Part shown: positions 1-43,941 of the stretch, piece by piece
Layout: the number at the start of each line of letters is the position of its first letter
Position numbering within the stretch: position 1 is the stretch's first letter
From: Papillibacter cinnamivorans DSM 12816
Lineage (GTDB): Bacteria; Bacillota; Clostridia; Oscillospirales; Oscillospiraceae
Length of the DNA stretch: 64,000 nt
Direction: 5' to 3'
NCBI RefSeq assembly: GCF_900176335.1
Contig: NZ_FWXW01000006.1
Location: 62,001-126,000, forward strand
Made by a program: the position numbers and the translations under genes
Notes under the pieces: model-generated
Told to the model about the DNA's origin: nothing
The model's input: only the letters and a program-made list of their open reading frames with translations
The model's database searches: none

Positions 1-2
1 AT

Positions 3-53
3 TATTACGGAGCGGCCGATTTTATATGCCCTGAGCCAGCCGGATGCGCCTGA
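3..53 (+). CDS. Tail of a Tyr-containing leader peptide (partial, cut by window edge)
   Basis: An open frame runs from the left edge to a TGA at 51-53 and reads YYGAADFICPEPAGCA. It lies before an intrinsic terminator and the aroF-tyrA pair. Its end resembles the leader peptide at 38136-38267: tandem YY stands where that one has tandem FF, followed in both by four residues, F, one residue and C (FFDNGWFSC against YYGAADFIC). I infer a tyrosine-sensing attenuation leader. The start codon and ribosome-binding site lie outside the window, so this rests on the alignment and the gene context only. Confidence 0.45.
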   Translation, partial: YYGAADFICPEPAGCA

Positions 54-75
54 AGCGCCTTTCAAAGGCGAACCA

Positions 76-113
76 GCCGCGGCGACTCGTAAAGGGTTGC
101 CGCGGTTTTTATT
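76..113 (+). terminator. Intrinsic terminator or attenuator before aroF1
   Basis: A 12-pair stem (77-88 with 94-105, loop GTAAA) contains CCGCGGC/GCCGCGG and is followed by TTTTTATT. It begins 24 bases after the stop of the putative Tyr leader and ends about 87 bases before aroF1. This fits an attenuator, but it could simply terminate an upstream gene that is not visible. Confidence 0.7.
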
Positions 114-5606: not shown

Positions 5607-6929
5607 ATGGACCTGTTTGAAAAGCTCAGGATTCTCACGGACGCTGCCAAATTCGACGTGGCGTGCACCTCCAGCGGCGTAGAAAAAACAGCCGCCCCCG
5701 GCGGAATCGGGAGCGCCGCTTCCTGCGGCATCTGCCACACCTTCGCGGCGGACGGCCGATGTGTATCTCTTTTAAAAGTTCTGCTCACCAACAGCTGCGT
5801 TTACGACTGCAAATACTGCGTCAACCGCAGGTCCAACGACACGCCCCGGGCGGTGTTCACCCCCCGGGAGCTGGCGGAACTCACCATCCAGTTTTACCGC
5901 CGGAACTATATCGAGGGGCTTTTTTTAAGCTCCGGGGTATACCGGAATCCGGACTACACCTGCGAGCAGATGATCGAGGTGCTGCGGACGCTCCGGGAGG
6001 AGTACCGGTTTTCCGGGTATATCCACGCCAAGGCCATCCCCGGGGCCGACCCGCGGCTCATCGACCGACTGGGGTGCCTTGCCGACCGGATGAGCATCAA
6101 TATCGAGCTTCCCTCCCGGGAGAGCCTGCGTCTGCTGGCTCCCGACAAATCCCGGCAGTCCATTTTCGCGCCCATGGGGCAGATCCGGGACAGGATCCAG
6201 GACAACTCCACCGAGCTTGTGAGGTACCGGGGCGCGCCCCGCTTCGCCCCGGCGGGGCAGAGCACCCAGATGATCGTGGGGGCCACGCCGGACACGGACT
6301 ACCAGATCCTGAAGCTCACGGAAGGCCTTTACAGGAAATACTCCCTCAAGCGGGTGTTCTTTTCCGCCTACATCCCCATGGCCTCCCACGAGCTGCTGCC
6401 GGCCGCCGGCACAAAGCCGCCCCTTCTCCGGGAGCACCGGCTGTACCAGGCGGACTGGCTGCTGCGGTACTATCAGTTTTCCGCCGGGGAGCTGCTGGAC
6501 GAGGAGCACCAGACCTTCAATCCCTTTGTGGACCCCAAGTGCAACTGGGCCCTCAACCACATGGAGCTCTTCCCCGTGGAGGTAAACCGGGCGGCCTACG
6601 AGACGCTCCTCCGGGTCCCGGGGATCGGGGTGACGGGGGCCAAGCGCATCCTCCGGGCCAGAAGGCAGTCCCGCCTGGATTTTGTCGGGCTCAAGCGGCT
6701 GGGAGTCGTTTTGAAGCGGGCCCAGTATTTCGTGACCTGCGACGGGAAGCGGCTGGAAGGGCTGAAAATCACACAGGATTCCGCGTTGCGCGCCCTGATG
6801 TCGGACAGAGAACTGGAGCTTTATCAGGGGAGCCGACGCCTGTTTCAGGCCCCGGAGCAGCTTTCCCTCTTCGGCGACCGGAATCCGACACAGGAGGATC
6901 TGCAGAAATGCCTCACAGGCCAAATCTGA
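5607..6929 (+). CDS. Putative DNA modification/repair radical SAM protein
   Basis: A 440-residue radical SAM protein of the family found beside DUF4130 proteins (the 'rSAM linked to UDG' group). It has CVYDCKYC (CxxxCxxC), a helix-hairpin-helix-like segment LLRVPGIGVTGAKRIL about 330-345 that suggests DNA contact, and near the C-terminus QLSLF (residues 418-422). QLSLF fits the bacterial sliding-clamp binding consensus. The ATG at 5607 has AAGGAGG seven bases before it; the frame extends upstream without a comparable site. The last 22 bases overlap the next gene. Its exact reaction is not known; the DNA link is from family context and motifs. Confidence 0.9.
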   Translation: MDLFEKLRILTDAAKFDVACTSSGVEKTAAPGGIGSAASCGICHTFAADGRCVSLLKVLLTNSCVYDCKYCVNRRSNDTPRAVFTPRELAELTIQFYRRNYIEGLFLSSGVYRNPDYTCEQMIEVLRTLREEYRFSGYIHAKAIPGADPRLIDRLGCLADRMSINIELPSRESLRLLAPDKSRQSIFAPMGQIRDRIQDNSTELVRYRGAPRFAPAGQSTQMIVGATPDTDYQILKLTEGLYRKYSLKRVFFSAYIPMASHELLPAAGTKPPLLREHRLYQADWLLRYYQFSAGELLDEEHQTFNPFVDPKCNWALNHMELFPVEVNRAAYETLLRVPGIGVTGAKRILRARRQSRLDFVGLKRLGVVLKRAQYFVTCDGKRLEGLKITQDSALRALMSDRELELYQGSRRLFQAPEQLSLFGDRNPTQEDLQKCLTGQI

Positions 6930-38085: not shown

Positions 38086-38135
38086 GCTTTTAATTCCCCG
38101 CAAAAAGATGAAACCTGACAGCATGAGGTAATGGT

Positions 38136-38267
38136 ATGGATTACAGCCGCTCCACAATGAAATTTTTCGCCTTTACCAGCAGCTGCTATCGATTTTTCGA
38201 TAACGGCTGGTTTAGTTGCGGAAAACTGAATTGTGAAAGCGATGGGTGCTGTCCTGCTTCCGCATAG
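38136..38267 (+). CDS. Phe-rich leader peptide of the aro operon
   Basis: A 43-codon frame between the promoter and the terminator before aroF2. GAGG lies seven bases before the ATG, so it should be translated. The peptide begins MDYSRSTM and continues KFFAFTSSCYRFFDNGWF, placing six Phe, one Tyr and one Trp in 18 residues, and ends in a Cys-rich tail. An inner ATG at 38157 (MKFFAF) is an alternative start. This is the layout of a translated attenuator such as pheL: shortage of Phe-tRNA would stall the ribosome on the FF codons and favour readthrough. I infer Phe sensing; no leader of this exact sequence is known to me. Confidence 0.75.
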   Translation: MDYSRSTMKFFAFTSSCYRFFDNGWFSCGKLNCESDGCCPASA

Positions 38268-38302: not shown

Positions 38303-38339
38303 GGGACTCATTGAATTTCAATGGGTCCCATTTTATTTT
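38303..38339 (+). terminator. Attenuator terminator between the leader peptide and aroF2
   Basis: GGGACTCATTG (38303-38313) pairs with CAATGGGTCCC (38319-38329), loop AATTT, then ATTTTATTTT. It starts 36 bases after the leader stop codon and ends 16 bases before the aroF2 start, so it can only act as an attenuator. A competing stem involving 38250-38285 is possible but was not folded. Confidence 0.82.
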
Positions 38340-38355: not shown

Positions 38356-39375
38356 ATGGTAGTGGTTTTAAAGCCGGGTACGGCGCGAAGTGACATCGAG
38401 GCCCTTGTGGAAAGTCTGCGGGAGCTGAACGTGGAAGCCAGCGTCACCAACGGGATCGGTTGTTCCATTCTGGGGCTGGTGGGAGACACCGCCAGCATCG
38501 ACATGGACAAGATTACCCTCAACGAGCATGTGGACCGGGTGATGCGTATCCAGGAGCCCTATAAAAAGGCAAACCGAAAATTTCACCCCGAGCCCACCGT
38601 AGTACAGGTGGGAAGCGCCAAGGTGGGGGGAGGCAATTTCTCCGTGATCGCCGGCCCCTGCTCGGTGGAAAGCGAGGCCCAAATCGTAAGTGTGGCCGAG
38701 TCGGTGAAGGCGGCGGGTGCCGCCATGCTCCGGGGGGGAGCCTTCAAGCCCAGGACCTCCCCCTATTCCTTCCAGGGTCTGGAGGCGGAAGGGCTGGACC
38801 TGCTGCTGGAGGCCAAGGCGATCACGGGTCTTCCCATCGTGAGCGAAATCATGTCGCCTAAGCTCTGCCAGGTTTTCGAGGAAAAGGTGGACGTGGTGCA
38901 GATCGGGGCCCGGAACATGCAGAACTTCGACCTTCTCAAGGAGGTGGGGCATATGTCCAAGCCGGTGCTTCTCAAACGGGGCCTTTCCAGCACCTATGAG
39001 GAGTGGATCATGTCGGCGGAGTATATCCTCGCGGGGGGAAACCCCAACGTGATTCTCTGCGAGCGGGGCATCCGCACCTTTGAGACCTACACCCGGAACA
39101 CCCTGGACGTGAGCGCCATCCCCTGCATCAAGCGGATGAGCCACCTGCCCGTCATCGTGGACCCCTCCCATTCCGGGGGAGCCAGCTGGCTGGTGGAGTC
39201 TTTGGCCCTGGCGGCCATCGCCGCGGGGGCCGACGGGGTCATCGTGGAAGTGCACAACGACCCGAAGCACGCCCTGTGCGACGGGGCCCAGTCTCTGACG
39301 CCGGAGCAGTTTGGGAGCCTCATGGGGAAAATGGGCGGAATGGTTGACCTCATGGGCAAAAGAATTGTACAATAA
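38356..39375 (+). CDS. aroF: 3-deoxy-7-phosphoheptulonate (DAHP) synthase, second copy
   Basis: A 339-residue type I-beta DAHP synthase with the same N-terminal ferredoxin-like domain and motifs as the copy at 200 (GPCSVES, KPRTSPYSFQG, QIGARNMQNFDLLK, VDPSHSGG). It heads an eight-gene operon that completes the pathway to phenylpyruvate. AAGGAGAG precedes the ATG at 38356. Control appears to be by the Phe-rich leader and attenuator upstream, possibly also by amino acid binding to the N-terminal domain. The two copies are close paralogues, differing mostly in the N-terminal domain and in helices. Confidence 0.96.
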   Translation: MVVVLKPGTARSDIEALVESLRELNVEASVTNGIGCSILGLVGDTASIDMDKITLNEHVDRVMRIQEPYKKANRKFHPEPTVVQVGSAKVGGGNFSVIAGPCSVESEAQIVSVAESVKAAGAAMLRGGAFKPRTSPYSFQGLEAEGLDLLLEAKAITGLPIVSEIMSPKLCQVFEEKVDVVQIGARNMQNFDLLKEVGHMSKPVLLKRGLSSTYEEWIMSAEYILAGGNPNVILCERGIRTFETYTRNTLDVSAIPCIKRMSHLPVIVDPSHSGGASWLVESLALAAIAAGADGVIVEVHNDPKHALCDGAQSLTPEQFGSLMGKMGGMVDLMGKRIVQ

Positions 39376-39423
39376 ACCTGTACAGCCAGGGCATATGGAA
39401 ACGAACCCACACGGAGGCGGGAT

Positions 39424-40500
39424 ATGAAGAAGCTGAAGGTGTCCATTCCCGGAAGAGAATATGAGATCCTGACGGACGGGGGGATCCTGGACCGGGCGGG
39501 GGAAATGGTCCGAAAGACCGTCCGGGGAGGGAGGATCGCCCTGGTGACGGATGAGAACGTCATGCCCCTGTACGGGGACCGGGTACGGGGAGCCTTGGAA
39601 AAAGCCGGGTTTTCGGTCCGGCCCGTTGTGATCCCCGCGGGAGAGACCAGCAAGTCCATGGCCATGCTGGAGCGTCTTTACGACGAATTCATGTCCTTTG
39701 AGCTTACCCGGGCGGACGCGGTGCTGGCCCTGGGGGGCGGCGTCGTGGGGGACCTTGCCGGATTTGCCGCCGCCACCATCCTGCGGGGCGTGGATTTCAT
39801 CCAGGTTCCCACCACCCTTCTTGCCCAGGTGGACAGTTCCGTGGGGGGCAAGGTGGCAATTGACCTGAAGGCGGGGAAGAATCTGGCGGGAGCTTTTTAT
39901 CAGCCCCGGCTGGTGCTTATCGATACCGATTGCCTCCATACGCTTCCCCCCCGGGAACTTTCCGGCGGGATGGCGGAGGTCATCAAATACGGGGCAATCC
40001 GGGACGCGGCGCTCTTCCGGCGGCTGGAGGAAGCCGAGATCCGGGAAGGGCTTCCCGCCGGGACCGAGGAGATCGTCTGTCGGTGCTGCGACATCAAGCG
40101 GGAGATTGTAGAGCGGGACGAGCGGGACACTGGGGAGAGAATGGTCCTCAATTTCGGCCATACCCTGGCTCACGCCTATGAAAGCGCTTACAACTTCGAG
40201 AAATATACCCACGGCGAGGCGGTGGCCGCCGGTATGTGCCGGATCGCCCTGTTGGGAGAAGAGCTTGGGATCACCGAACCCGGAACGGCAAAGCGCCTGC
40301 GGGCGCTGGTGCGGAAATGGGGGCTTCCCGACGCCATCGAGTGTACCCCGGAGCAATACGGAAGGGCTCTCCGACTGGACAAAAAGGGCGAGGGCGGCAG
40401 CATCCGGCTGGTTGCGCTGAAAGCCCCGGGAGAGGCCGTTCTCTATCAGATAAAGAAAGAGGCGCTTCTGGAGCTTCTTTCGAGAGAGGTGAGGGAATGA
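39424..40500 (+). CDS. aroB: 3-dehydroquinate synthase
   Basis: A 358-residue NAD- and metal-dependent enzyme that cyclises DAHP to 3-dehydroquinate. The family segments ALGGGVVGDLAGFAAAT, VPTTLLAQVDSSVGGKVAID and NFGHTLAHAYE (metal-binding histidine) are present. GGAGG precedes the ATG. It lies 48 bases after aroF2 without a terminator, and its TGA overlaps the aroA start as ATGA. Full length for the family. Confidence 0.97.
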   Translation: MKKLKVSIPGREYEILTDGGILDRAGEMVRKTVRGGRIALVTDENVMPLYGDRVRGALEKAGFSVRPVVIPAGETSKSMAMLERLYDEFMSFELTRADAVLALGGGVVGDLAGFAAATILRGVDFIQVPTTLLAQVDSSVGGKVAIDLKAGKNLAGAFYQPRLVLIDTDCLHTLPPRELSGGMAEVIKYGAIRDAALFRRLEEAEIREGLPAGTEEIVCRCCDIKREIVERDERDTGERMVLNFGHTLAHAYESAYNFEKYTHGEAVAAGMCRIALLGEELGITEPGTAKRLRALVRKWGLPDAIECTPEQYGRALRLDKKGEGGSIRLVALKAPGEAVLYQIKKEALLELLSREVRE

Positions 40501-41708
40501 CGGTATTCATCACTCCCGCAAGGCTTCACGGTACAGTGAAGCCTCCGCCCTCCAAGAGCCAGGCCCACCGGGCGCTTCTGGCTGCGGCGCTGGCCCGGGG
40601 GACAAGCCGCATTCAAAACGTGGATCCGTCGGAAGACATTCTTGCCACCATGGGCGCGGTACAAAGCCTGGGGATTTCCTGCCGGAAAGACGGGAAGACG
40701 GTCACGGTGGGCGAGCTGCGGATGAAACGGGACCTTGCAGCCCCTATAGACTGCGGGGAATCGGGCTCCACCCTCCGGTTTCTGATTCCCATTGCCCTCG
40801 CCCTTTTTGGAGCTGGACGCTTCACCGGCCGGGGCCGCCTGATGCGGCGGCCGCAGGAGCCGTATTTTGAAATTTTCCGGGAACGGGGGATTCGTTACGA
40901 TTTGCAGGGAGATCTTCTCTGGGCTGAGGGGGAACTGAAATCCGGCGTATTCCGGCTGCCGGGGGATGTGAGCTCCCAGTTTGTCACGGGACTTCTCTTT
41001 GCTCTTCCCCTTCTGAAGGGAGACTCGGTCATCGAGGTCACCTCGCCTCTGGAATCCCGGGGCTATGTGGACATGACTCTGGATACCCTTGCGGGATTCG
41101 GCATCCGGGCGGATAACCGGGGGTACGAAAGCTTTTTCATCCCGGGCGGACAGAGCTACCGTCCCCGGGAGATGACGGTGGAGAGCGACTATTCCCAGGC
41201 CGCCTTTTTCCTGGCGGCAAATGTTATGGGAAACCGGATCGAGGTTTCCGGGCTCAATCCAGACTCCATTCAGGGAGACAGGGTGATTCTGGAGCTTGCC
41301 GGGAGGATGACGACACCGGGGGATCTGGAGATCGACGTCAGCCAGTGCCCCGACCTGGTGCCGGCGCTGGCCGCTGCTGCGGCGCTGCGGCGGGGATGGA
41401 CAACGAGCCTCACGGGGGCCGGACGCCTGCGGCTCAAGGAGAGCGACAGGCTGGAGGCCGTGAGCGCGGAGCTTAGCGCCCTGGGGGCGGAAATTGAGGC
41501 GGGAGAAGACTTTTTAAAGATACACGGCGTGGAAAACCTCCGTGGAGGTTCTACCGACAGCCGGGGGGACCACCGGATCGCCATGGCCCTGGCGGTGGCC
41601 GCCACCCGGGCATCCGGGGAAGTGACCGTCACGGGAGCGGAAGCGGTGCGGAAATCCTATCCGGACTTCTGGGAAGACTATCGCATGCTGGGAGGAAACA
41701 TCCGATGA
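40497..41708 (+). CDS. aroA: 3-phosphoshikimate 1-carboxyvinyltransferase (EPSP synthase)
   Basis: A 403-residue transferase that joins PEP to shikimate 3-phosphate. Shikimate-phosphate-binding PPPSKSQAHRALLAA, the CGESGSTLRFLIP loop and RLKESDRLEAV are visible. The first loop sequence (CGESGSTLRF) differs from the class I NAGTAMRPL form, so it belongs with the divergent class II type. The ATG at 40497 overlaps the aroB stop (ATGA). It ends in another ATGA overlap with aroC. Confidence 0.96.
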   Translation: MTVFITPARLHGTVKPPPSKSQAHRALLAAALARGTSRIQNVDPSEDILATMGAVQSLGISCRKDGKTVTVGELRMKRDLAAPIDCGESGSTLRFLIPIALALFGAGRFTGRGRLMRRPQEPYFEIFRERGIRYDLQGDLLWAEGELKSGVFRLPGDVSSQFVTGLLFALPLLKGDSVIEVTSPLESRGYVDMTLDTLAGFGIRADNRGYESFFIPGGQSYRPREMTVESDYSQAAFFLAANVMGNRIEVSGLNPDSIQGDRVILELAGRMTTPGDLEIDVSQCPDLVPALAAAAALRRGWTTSLTGAGRLRLKESDRLEAVSAELSALGAEIEAGEDFLKIHGVENLRGGSTDSRGDHRIAMALAVAATRASGEVTVTGAEAVRKSYPDFWEDYRMLGGNIR

Positions 41709-42775
41709 AATACATGCTTTTCGGGGAATCCCACGGTCCGGCCGTGGGCGTGGTGCTGGAGGGAGTGCCTCCGGGAATTCCCCTGGAGGAGGGCCTCATC
41801 CGGCGGGAACTGGAGCGGCGGGCTCCGGGGAAAAACCGTTTTTCAACCCCCCGCCGGGAGGAGGACGCCTTTGAAATTCTCAGCGGCGTCTTTGAGGGAA
41901 AAACCACGGGGACCCCTCTGTGCGCCCTGATCCGGAACACTGACGTCAAGTCCGGGGACTACGAAAAAACGCGGTACCTGGCTAGGCCGGGACACGCGGA
42001 TTATACGGGGCACGTGAAGTACCGCGGCTTTGAGGATTACCGGGGCGGAGGCCATTTTTCCGGGAGGCTCACGGCCCCCCTGGTCTTCGCCGGCTCCGTG
42101 GCAAGACAGGTTCTCGCCGGGCGCTCAATTGCCGTGGGCGCGCACATCCTGGAGATCCACGGCAAAGAGGACGCGTCTTTCGACCCCGTGAATATTCTTC
42201 CGGAGCAGCTGGCCGTGGTGGCGGGGAAGGCCTTCCCCGTTCTGGACGATAAGTGCGGGACGGATATGATGCTGGAAATCGATCAGGCCCGGGAAGCGAG
42301 GGACTCTGTGGGCGGCGTTGTGGAATGCGCGGTGCTGGGGCTGCCGGCCGGCGCGGGAGCGCCGGGGCAGGACAGCGCCGAGAGCATTTTATCCCGGCAC
42401 CTTTTCGCCGTTCCCGCCGTCAAGGGGGTTTCCTTCGGCGCGGGATTCCGGTTTTCCCGGATGCTGGGGAGCGAGGCCAACGACCCCATCCGGCAAGGCG
42501 AGGCGGGCATTATCCTGGAGACTAACCACAGCGGCGGGATCAACGGCGGAATCACCAACGCTATGCCGCTAGTTTTCTCGGTTGTTATCCGGCCTACGCC
42601 TTCCATCGGATTGCCCCAGCGCACGGTGAACCTGGAGACGGGGGAGAACGCCGAACTCATCATCGAGGGCAGACACGATCCCTGCATCGTGCCCCGGGCG
42701 GTCCCGGTCATCGAGGCGGCGGCAGCGCTGGCGGTCTGGGAAATTCTAGAACAATCCGGCGAGGGAGCGGTATGA
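41705..42775 (+). CDS. aroC: Chorismate synthase
   Basis: A 356-residue FMN-dependent enzyme that removes phosphate from EPSP to give chorismate, the branch point for Phe, Tyr, Trp and folate. Signature elements are GESHGPAVGVVLEGVPPG near the start, YRGGGHFSGRLTAPLV and NHSGGINGGITNAMPLVF. No flavin reductase domain is present, so reduced flavin must be supplied. Its ATG overlaps the aroA stop and its TGA overlaps the pheA start, both by four bases. Confidence 0.97.
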   Translation: MKYMLFGESHGPAVGVVLEGVPPGIPLEEGLIRRELERRAPGKNRFSTPRREEDAFEILSGVFEGKTTGTPLCALIRNTDVKSGDYEKTRYLARPGHADYTGHVKYRGFEDYRGGGHFSGRLTAPLVFAGSVARQVLAGRSIAVGAHILEIHGKEDASFDPVNILPEQLAVVAGKAFPVLDDKCGTDMMLEIDQAREARDSVGGVVECAVLGLPAGAGAPGQDSAESILSRHLFAVPAVKGVSFGAGFRFSRMLGSEANDPIRQGEAGIILETNHSGGINGGITNAMPLVFSVVIRPTPSIGLPQRTVNLETGENAELIIEGRHDPCIVPRAVPVIEAAAALAVWEILEQSGEGAV

Positions 42776-43941
42776 TGGACAAGCTTGATTGCCTGCGGGG
42801 AGAGATCGACGCGGTGGACGCTGCCCTGACGGAGCTCTACGAGCGCCGCCGGGAGCTGACGGCGCAGGTGGGGGAATACAAGCGCGGCAAGGGGCTTGGA
42901 GTGACCGATCCCAAACGGGAAGCGGAAGCTCTGGCGGCCCGGCGCGCCCTGCTGCGGGACAGGTCGCTGGGAGCCGACCTCACGGCCCTGTTCGAGCTCA
43001 TCATGAGCCAGAGCAGGAGGCAGCAGAGACTGCTGCAGGACCGTGCCGGGAACGGTGCGACGGAACCGTCCGGTTCTCCGGTGTGGAGGGAAATCCGGCG
43101 CCCCCTGGAGCGCCCCACCGTGGCTTACCAGGGGCTTCCGGGAGCATACGGCGAAGAGGCGGCGGCGCTTTTTTTCGGTAAAGAGGCCTCTTATATCCAT
43201 ACGGAGAGCTTTGAAGGGGTGTTTACGGTCCTTTCGCAGGGAAGGGCGGATTACGGCGTGGTGCCCATCGAAAACAGCTCCACCGGAGCCATCAACGCGG
43301 TGTACGACCTTCTGGGGAAATACGGATTTTATATCGTCGGAGAGCAGAGCGTCCGGGTCTGCCACTGCCTGCTGGCTCCCCGGGGCGCGGTGCTGGACGG
43401 TATCCGGCAGGTGTATTCTCACGAGCAGGGCTTTTTTCAATCGGAGGAGTATTTAAGGCGGTATCCCCAATGGCAGCGGATCCCGCTTCTCAACACAGCG
43501 GAAGCGGCCCGTTTTGTGGCGGAGTCCGGGGACCCCGCCAGGGCGGCCATCGCCAGTTCCCGGGCCGCCGACATCTACAGCCTGACGGTGCTGGCGGAGG
43601 GGATCAATTTCAGCGACAAGAACAGCACCCGCTTCGTGGTGGTCTCTCCCGGTATGGAAATCCGGGAGGGGGCGGACAAGATCAGCGCTCTTTTCACCCT
43701 GGAGCACGAGAGCGGAAGCCTTTACCGGGCCCTGTCCATTTTTGCCGTGAGCGGGCTGAACCTTTTAAAGATCGAGTCCCGCCCCATTCCGGACAGAAGC
43801 TGGGAGTACCGGTTCTTCGTGGACTTTTCCGGAAGGCTTGGAGAAGGCGGCATGGACAACGTCATCCGGGAACTGCGGGAAAACAGCCGGTCGTTTCAGA
43901 TTTTAGGCAACTACAGGTCCAACATGGGGGAAGCGATGTGA
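42772..43941 (+). CDS. pheA: Bifunctional chorismate mutase / prephenate dehydratase (P-protein)
   Basis: A 389-residue fusion. Residues 1-90 form an AroQ-type chorismate mutase (LDCLRGEIDAVDAALTELYERR). Residues 115-290 form prephenate dehydratase (VAYQGLPGAYGEEAA, later DKNSTRFVVV). From about 300 there is a C-terminal ACT domain with the Phe-binding ESRPIPDRSWEYRFFVDF. It converts chorismate through prephenate to phenylpyruvate and should be feedback-inhibited by Phe. Its presence in this operon matches the Phe-rich leader. The start is the first of two adjacent ATGs, overlapping aroC. Confidence 0.97.
   Translation: MMDKLDCLRGEIDAVDAALTELYERRRELTAQVGEYKRGKGLGVTDPKREAEALAARRALLRDRSLGADLTALFELIMSQSRRQQRLLQDRAGNGATEPSGSPVWREIRRPLERPTVAYQGLPGAYGEEAAALFFGKEASYIHTESFEGVFTVLSQGRADYGVVPIENSSTGAINAVYDLLGKYGFYIVGEQSVRVCHCLLAPRGAVLDGIRQVYSHEQGFFQSEEYLRRYPQWQRIPLLNTAEAARFVAESGDPARAAIASSRAADIYSLTVLAEGINFSDKNSTRFVVVSPGMEIREGADKISALFTLEHESGSLYRALSIFAVSGLNLLKIESRPIPDRSWEYRFFVDFSGRLGEGGMDNVIRELRENSRSFQILGNYRSNMGEAM

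Follow-up and report, generated by a model that had tools for sequence, protein, structure and literature searches.

The window, that is, the whole 64,000-nucleotide stretch of Papillibacter cinnamivorans DSM 12816 DNA analyzed here, begins inside a short open reading frame (the Tyr leader) that precedes an intrinsic terminator and the genes aroF1 and tyrA. A second leader, rich in Phe codons, lies further downstream in front of aroF2. The DNA left of the window was taken from the flanking sequence L003, in which position 6001 corresponds to window position 1. The aroF1 locus is composed of the following features:

1–53, + strand: 3′ part of the Tyr leader ORF (whole ORF: L003 5958–6053)
L003 5979–5984 and 5991–5993: further Tyr codons of the leader, read from the flanking sequence
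1–8, + strand: regulatory Tyr codons TAT TAT TAC, the first T lying just left of the window
1–16, + strand: hairpin 1:2 enclosing YYY, made up of GCCGCT (L003 5995–6000), the loop ATTATTACGG and AGCGGC (window 11–16)
28–52, + strand: predicted antiterminator 5′ half, GCCCTGAGCC..GCGCCTG, encoded by the last leader codons
55–70, + strand: inner hairpin of the antiterminator, GCGCCTTTCAAAGGCG
74–97, + strand: predicted antiterminator 3′ half, overlapping the terminator 5′ arm and the start of the 3′ arm
75–112, + strand: intrinsic terminator and T tract of the Tyr leader, with a 14-pair stem at 75–107 (L003 6075–6107) of −26.5 kcal/mol
200–1213, + strand: aroF1, DAHP synthase
1221–2063, + strand: tyrA, prephenate dehydrogenase

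Positions 3 to 53 of the window are open in frame and translate into YYGAADFICPEPAGCA followed by a stop codon. The initial annotation had read this frame as the end of a Tyr leader in front of a strong terminator and had suggested looking for a start codon, a ribosome binding site and a promoter to its left. The flanking DNA contains a start codon and candidates for the other two. The complete ORF, MKFVSAFYYQGYRRYYYGAADFICPEPAGCA, consists of 31 codons and a TGA stop. Its ATG (L003 5958–5960) is located 42–43 bases left of the window edge downstream of GAGGTG, a candidate ribosome binding site read from the sequence, and a promoter-like site with TG preceding the −10 region (TTGACT-17-TAAAGT, L003 5911–5939) ends 18 bases 5′ of the ATG. 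The leader contains six Tyr codons arranged as YY, Y and YYY as well as three Phe codons, and the peptide continues beyond C-P. The window edge falls inside the first codon of the YYY triplet, with YY and Y further upstream. Upstream, the closest gene is a large ORF that begins near L003 5763 and runs divergently on the minus strand. Hence no gene ends in the leader frame, and the flanking sequence rules out the reading, raised with the initial annotation, that 3–53 is the tail of an ordinary gene or is not open.

Searches of the leader peptides against NCBIfam gave no matches. Rfam returned no hits in the window and none at gathering level in the L003 flank; matches to RNAI, Pistol and sR35 scored far under gathering level and were dismissed. 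Short ORFs are common, and it might be argued that an unrelated short frame happens to lie before an ordinary terminator. Of 3000 shuffles, 146 matched the Phe leader with its five Phe in 16 codons, and this composition is on its own a weaker argument than that of the Tyr leader. Six Tyr in 16 codons, on the other hand, did not occur in any of 3000 dinucleotide shuffles of the Tyr leader upstream region, and position, composition and hairpin are conserved in dozens of relatives. Coincidence is thus hardly conceivable and is already refuted by the conservation in relatives.

In the Tyr leaders, the arms of hairpin 1:2 are spelled by TAC-CGC-T.. and ..AGC-GGC with the regulatory codons inside. 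Arms and loop lengths co-vary among relatives (CCGCTAT/ATAGCGG, CCGCTGC/GCAGCGG and CCGTTGCTA/TAGCAGCGG). In relative L056 the arms read ACCGcTACCG/CGGTAaCGGT and even the SG residues are replaced. In some other relatives the aromatic codons themselves represent the 5′ arm, while KVKV or GKA codons provide the 3′ arm. Four leaders from other Clostridia (L038, L040, L142 and L146) contain FYF codons that pair with AAA-GTA-AAA; the KVKV tail of these peptides is merely the other hairpin arm. Leader folds exceeded those of synonymous recodings on average, with a mean z of −1.3 for recoding by codon usage and −1.7 for permutation of the leader's own codons (107 leaders). For the window Tyr leader alone the synonymous-codon test gave p values of 0.12 and 0.03.

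When a ribosome is placed on the last Tyr codons, GCCCTGAG..GCGCC is predicted to pair with the terminator 5′ arm and then with AGGGT. The energy of this antiterminator amounts to −22.3 kcal/mol before the terminator 3′ arm is made and to −29.1 kcal/mol once AGGGT is out. The full-length minimum-energy fold of the Tyr leader includes the terminator. Antitermination is therefore a kinetic claim, and the folding calculations ignore kinetics. On stalling, the terminator arm was sequestered to 0.68 in the Tyr group compared with 0.57 for shuffled spacers, and to 0.66 compared with 0.51 in the pheA-linked group; at the stop codon, sequestration was lower (0.41 and 0.43, respectively). The effect is moderate, with the window Tyr leader at rank 0.10 and many single leaders short of significance. 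In the Tyr relatives, the base following TGCCC was complementary to the base preceding the terminator GGGC in 40 of 49 cases (G-T counted), a covariation that on the tree comprises three to four independent changes, all in the right direction and too few for significance.

The locus displays a translated-looking leader ORF with start codon and ribosome binding site, a run of codons for the end product, a terminator and hairpin 1:2. This attenuator anatomy is conserved in relatives, together with a predicted pairing that could compete with the terminator. Judged from the sequence, transcription of aroF1-tyrA is very probably controlled by ribosome-mediated attenuation that senses charged tRNA-Tyr, and the operon would in this way respond to tyrosine. 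If Tyr-tRNA is sufficient, the ribosome would reach the stop codon and cover the 5′ half of the antiterminator, which would allow the terminator to form and stop transcription. If Tyr-tRNA is scarce, the ribosome would stall on the Tyr codons and open hairpin 1:2, so that the antiterminator (window 28–97) could form and aroF1-tyrA would be transcribed. The Phe leader starting at 38136 is proposed to act in the same manner on aroF2..pheA.

Many Tyr leaders end with S-G-x-x-(A/S)-C-P-stop, and a C-terminus of the type S-G-x-x-x-C-P-stop might act as a TnaC-like nascent-peptide arrest sensor, which holds the ribosome on free tyrosine instead of responding to codon starvation. We consider such an arrest peptide highly improbable and rejected it, as there is no peptide-level conservation beyond the needs of RNA pairing. 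R..SG tracks the hairpin pairing and is replaced along with the hairpin in L056. TGCCC, which spells C-P, persists downstream of the stop codon in several relatives (L066, L069, L082, L083, L089 and L092), which favors a role of the RNA and disfavors an arrest peptide. Moreover, the window leader extends past C-P, and a biosynthetic operon would have to be wired the other way round for arrest at excess tyrosine.

The second leader and its operon show the following features:

38136–38267, + strand: Phe leader ORF (..MKFFAFTSSCYRFFDNGWFSCGKLNCESDGCCPASA), preceding a terminator and aroF2-aroB-aroA-aroC-pheA
38180–38209, + strand: hairpin enclosing the FF codons, containing TATCGA-TTTT-TCGATA
38303–38339, + strand: terminator of the Phe leader, 12-pair stem at 38303–38329
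38356–43941, + strand: aroF2-aroB-aroA-aroC-pheA, behind the Phe leader

Its antiterminator ranked 0.00 against shuffles. The values obtained in the antiterminator analysis, 0.82 compared with 0.46 and 0.46, were counted in favor of attenuation; the pairing at the stop codon was not less open than in shuffles, which was counted against it. The FF hairpin, the antiterminator rank and the Phe-rich leaders of relatives together make the Phe leader convincing. The terminator 5′ arm core (G/A)CTCATT(GA) is kept among distant aroF leaders, namely in the window (38303–38329), in Phe-type leaders and in Clostridium, and these cores resemble each other more than the leader peptides do. The core may be a mark of common descent of these attenuators.

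The initial annotation had aligned the two leader peptides residue by residue. What is retained of this alignment is the surroundings of the regulatory codons: the feature shared by both leaders is the predicted RNA hairpin around these codons. Given the conservation of the hairpin, the likeness of the two peptides, which have an R in front of YY or FF, reflects a constraint on the RNA, and F-x-C lies outside it. F-x-C and the terminal GC..A, thought to be kept between the leaders, are not found in Phe-type relatives (GFFGMGK and similar) and are taken as chance likeness. The same applies to the MKF start common to both leaders, as the Shine-Dalgarno sequence of the Phe leader, GAGGT at 38124–38128, suits the earlier ATG at 38136 and not the ATG at 38157.

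AroF loci for comparison were collected from whole genomes of the family and from named genome contigs, and second paralogues were fetched by place. Most of the sample comes from a single family, supplemented by some Clostridium loci and others, and the nearest relatives among the named contigs belong to Flavonifractor, Intestinimonas and Pseudoflavonifractor. An ORF with a ribosome binding site and at least seven F/Y/W in 16 codons was present in 71 of 140 distinct aroF upstream regions compared with 4 of 1400 shuffles; the binding site rule overlooks some leaders, so that a region scored without a leader does not necessarily lack one. Nearly all scored leaders were followed by a strong hairpin and a T run.

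Leader type was assigned by a cut-off of 0.45 for Y/(Y+F). Among the scored leaders, all 59 aroF-tyrA operons without aroB/pheA carried Tyr-rich leaders and all 23 aroF-aroB..(pheA) operons without tyrA carried Phe-rich leaders, an association whose statistical weight is that of two events, because two context changes and two leader-type changes on the tree suffice to account for these rows. The prediction of YY with tyrA and FF with pheA was thus borne out. Combined operons containing tyrA and aroB.. had mixed leaders. Median Y/(Y+F) was 0.85 for aroF1-tyrA, 0.17 for aroF2-aroB.. and 0.44 for combined operons; the corresponding pooled values were 0.81 (n = 58), 0.18 (n = 13) and 0.47 (n = 24). 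The best explanation is that the aromatic codons of the aroF leader set correspond to the end products of the respective operon.

The AroF tree places the aroF1 clade (SH-aLRT 100) and the aroF2 clade (99) apart from each other, without a sister relationship, and mixed leaders predominate in the rest of the tree. The initial proposal that the sensed amino acid was changed by swapping one codon pair is therefore too simple; it is the whole aromatic cluster that differs. Direct switching between Tyr and Phe is no more likely than specialization of mixed leaders. We infer that a divergence of whole aromatic clusters, perhaps from mixed ancestors, fits better.

The upstream regions of the two paralogues also differ at the promoter. 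The aroF1 promoters share TTGACTTTnGCACCAAAAAGTGCTAAAGT, which is absent from aroF2 promoters, and some relatives exhibit a perfect inverted repeat, ACTTTAGCAC-N6-GTGCTAAAGT, over the −35/−10 spacer. The element occurs once in the genome of P. cinnamivorans, at aroF1 (L003 5911–5939), and one further match was detected in relative L173 before an indolepyruvate ferredoxin oxidoreductase-like gene. The TTGACTTTnGCACCAAAAAGTGCTAAAGT element is a possible operator of an aromatic regulator. If so, a DNA-binding protein at the promoter might exert the main tyrosine control and the leader might be minor or a relic. This is very unlikely: in P. cinnamivorans and in one clade the left arm has a degenerate sequence, the element may be just an extended −10 promoter, and a promoter regulator leaves leader composition, hairpin and terminator unexplained. 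Apart from that, promoter regulation and the favored leader attenuation are compatible layers.

No T-box (RF00230) was found before aroF1 in the window or the flank. The genome contains 14 T-box matches (L004–L017), none of them before either aroF. Several lie in front of tryptophan and branched-chain genes; the genes concerned, as named from Pfam domains, encode anthranilate synthase (trpE), isopropylmalate synthase, tryptophan-synthase-like PLP enzymes and an acetolactate synthase-type TPP enzyme, and T-boxes were also seen before aminoacyl-tRNA synthetases. According to these matches the Trp branch is under putative T-box control, and the Tyr and Phe branches carry predicted leader peptides. 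The T-boxes of the Trp genes fit the scarcity of Trp codons in the aroF leaders.

On balance, we are inclined to assume that one leader-peptide attenuator family resides on Clostridia DAHP synthase genes, and that its members, built on a common hairpin architecture, have been retuned to sense different amino acids. Leaders of this family would be mixed Phe/Tyr(/Trp) in combined operons, Tyr-dedicated with tyrA and Phe-dedicated on the pheA-side paralogue, with the Trp genes of the same genome on T-boxes. If true, a single retuned family would provide a regulatory division of labor between enzyme paralogues via codon replacement. One gene equipped with leaders reading Tyr, Phe or both represents a natural experiment on how attenuation specificity is set and changed, and it yields immediate predictions on how gut Oscillospiraceae control aromatic amino acids. 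The set also illustrates that RNA pairing can make a leader peptide seem conserved (KVKV, SG) even if its amino acids are of no consequence. Tyr-dedicated leader peptides are hardly described in the searchable literature, and Firmicutes usually use T-boxes. Within the open-access literature, with most subscription papers outside this scope, we found no account of the Clostridia set or of sibling leaders dedicated to Tyr and to Phe, respectively.

The type of mechanism is already known from trpL, pheL, Corynebacterium AroR and uORFC-13-1. In pheL-pheA and trpL-trpE of Escherichia coli, the regulatory codons are located within hairpin 1:2, and an antiterminator competes with the terminator. The leaders described here share this arrangement of codons in hairpin 1:2 with a terminator and a predicted competing antiterminator. 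They differ from pheL and trpL (summarized in PMC11802643) in sensed amino acid, gene and phylum, and the likeness is one of architecture only. In Corynebacterium glutamicum, the DAHP synthase gene aroF is likewise preceded by a leader peptide containing aromatic codons, AroR (Neshat et al. 2014). According to PMC11802643 and PMC4046766, it contains Phe-Tyr-Phe codons and responds to Phe but not Tyr limitation, and ribosome stalling raises transcription. Unlike the present leaders, AroR belongs to an Actinobacterium and is described there without a Tyr-dedicated sibling; the two are likened by description, not homology. The uORFC-13-1 candidate, with 24 examples from Acholeplasma and environmental sequences, is an upstream ORF before aroF that includes Phe codon(s) and is accompanied by a promoter, a ribosome binding site, an additional stem and a neighboring terminator (PMC8632094). 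It is described as Phe-coding only and lacks the tyrA/pheA specialization, and the comparison covers only the gene and the overall arrangement. Another example of leader-peptide attenuators from Firmicutes, in which T-boxes are the common solution, is provided by the His leaders of the Bacillus hisS/hisZ paralogues (PMC2965389). These are tied to gene duplicates as well, but concern histidine, aminoacyl-tRNA synthetase genes and Bacilli. Finally, a Tyr-tRNA attenuator for E. coli aroF-tyrA was proposed in a 1980 paper, cited as a proposal in PMC2659441. The accessible text of the latter mentions no conserved Tyr leader peptide family, but gene pair and signal are identical to those of the present case.
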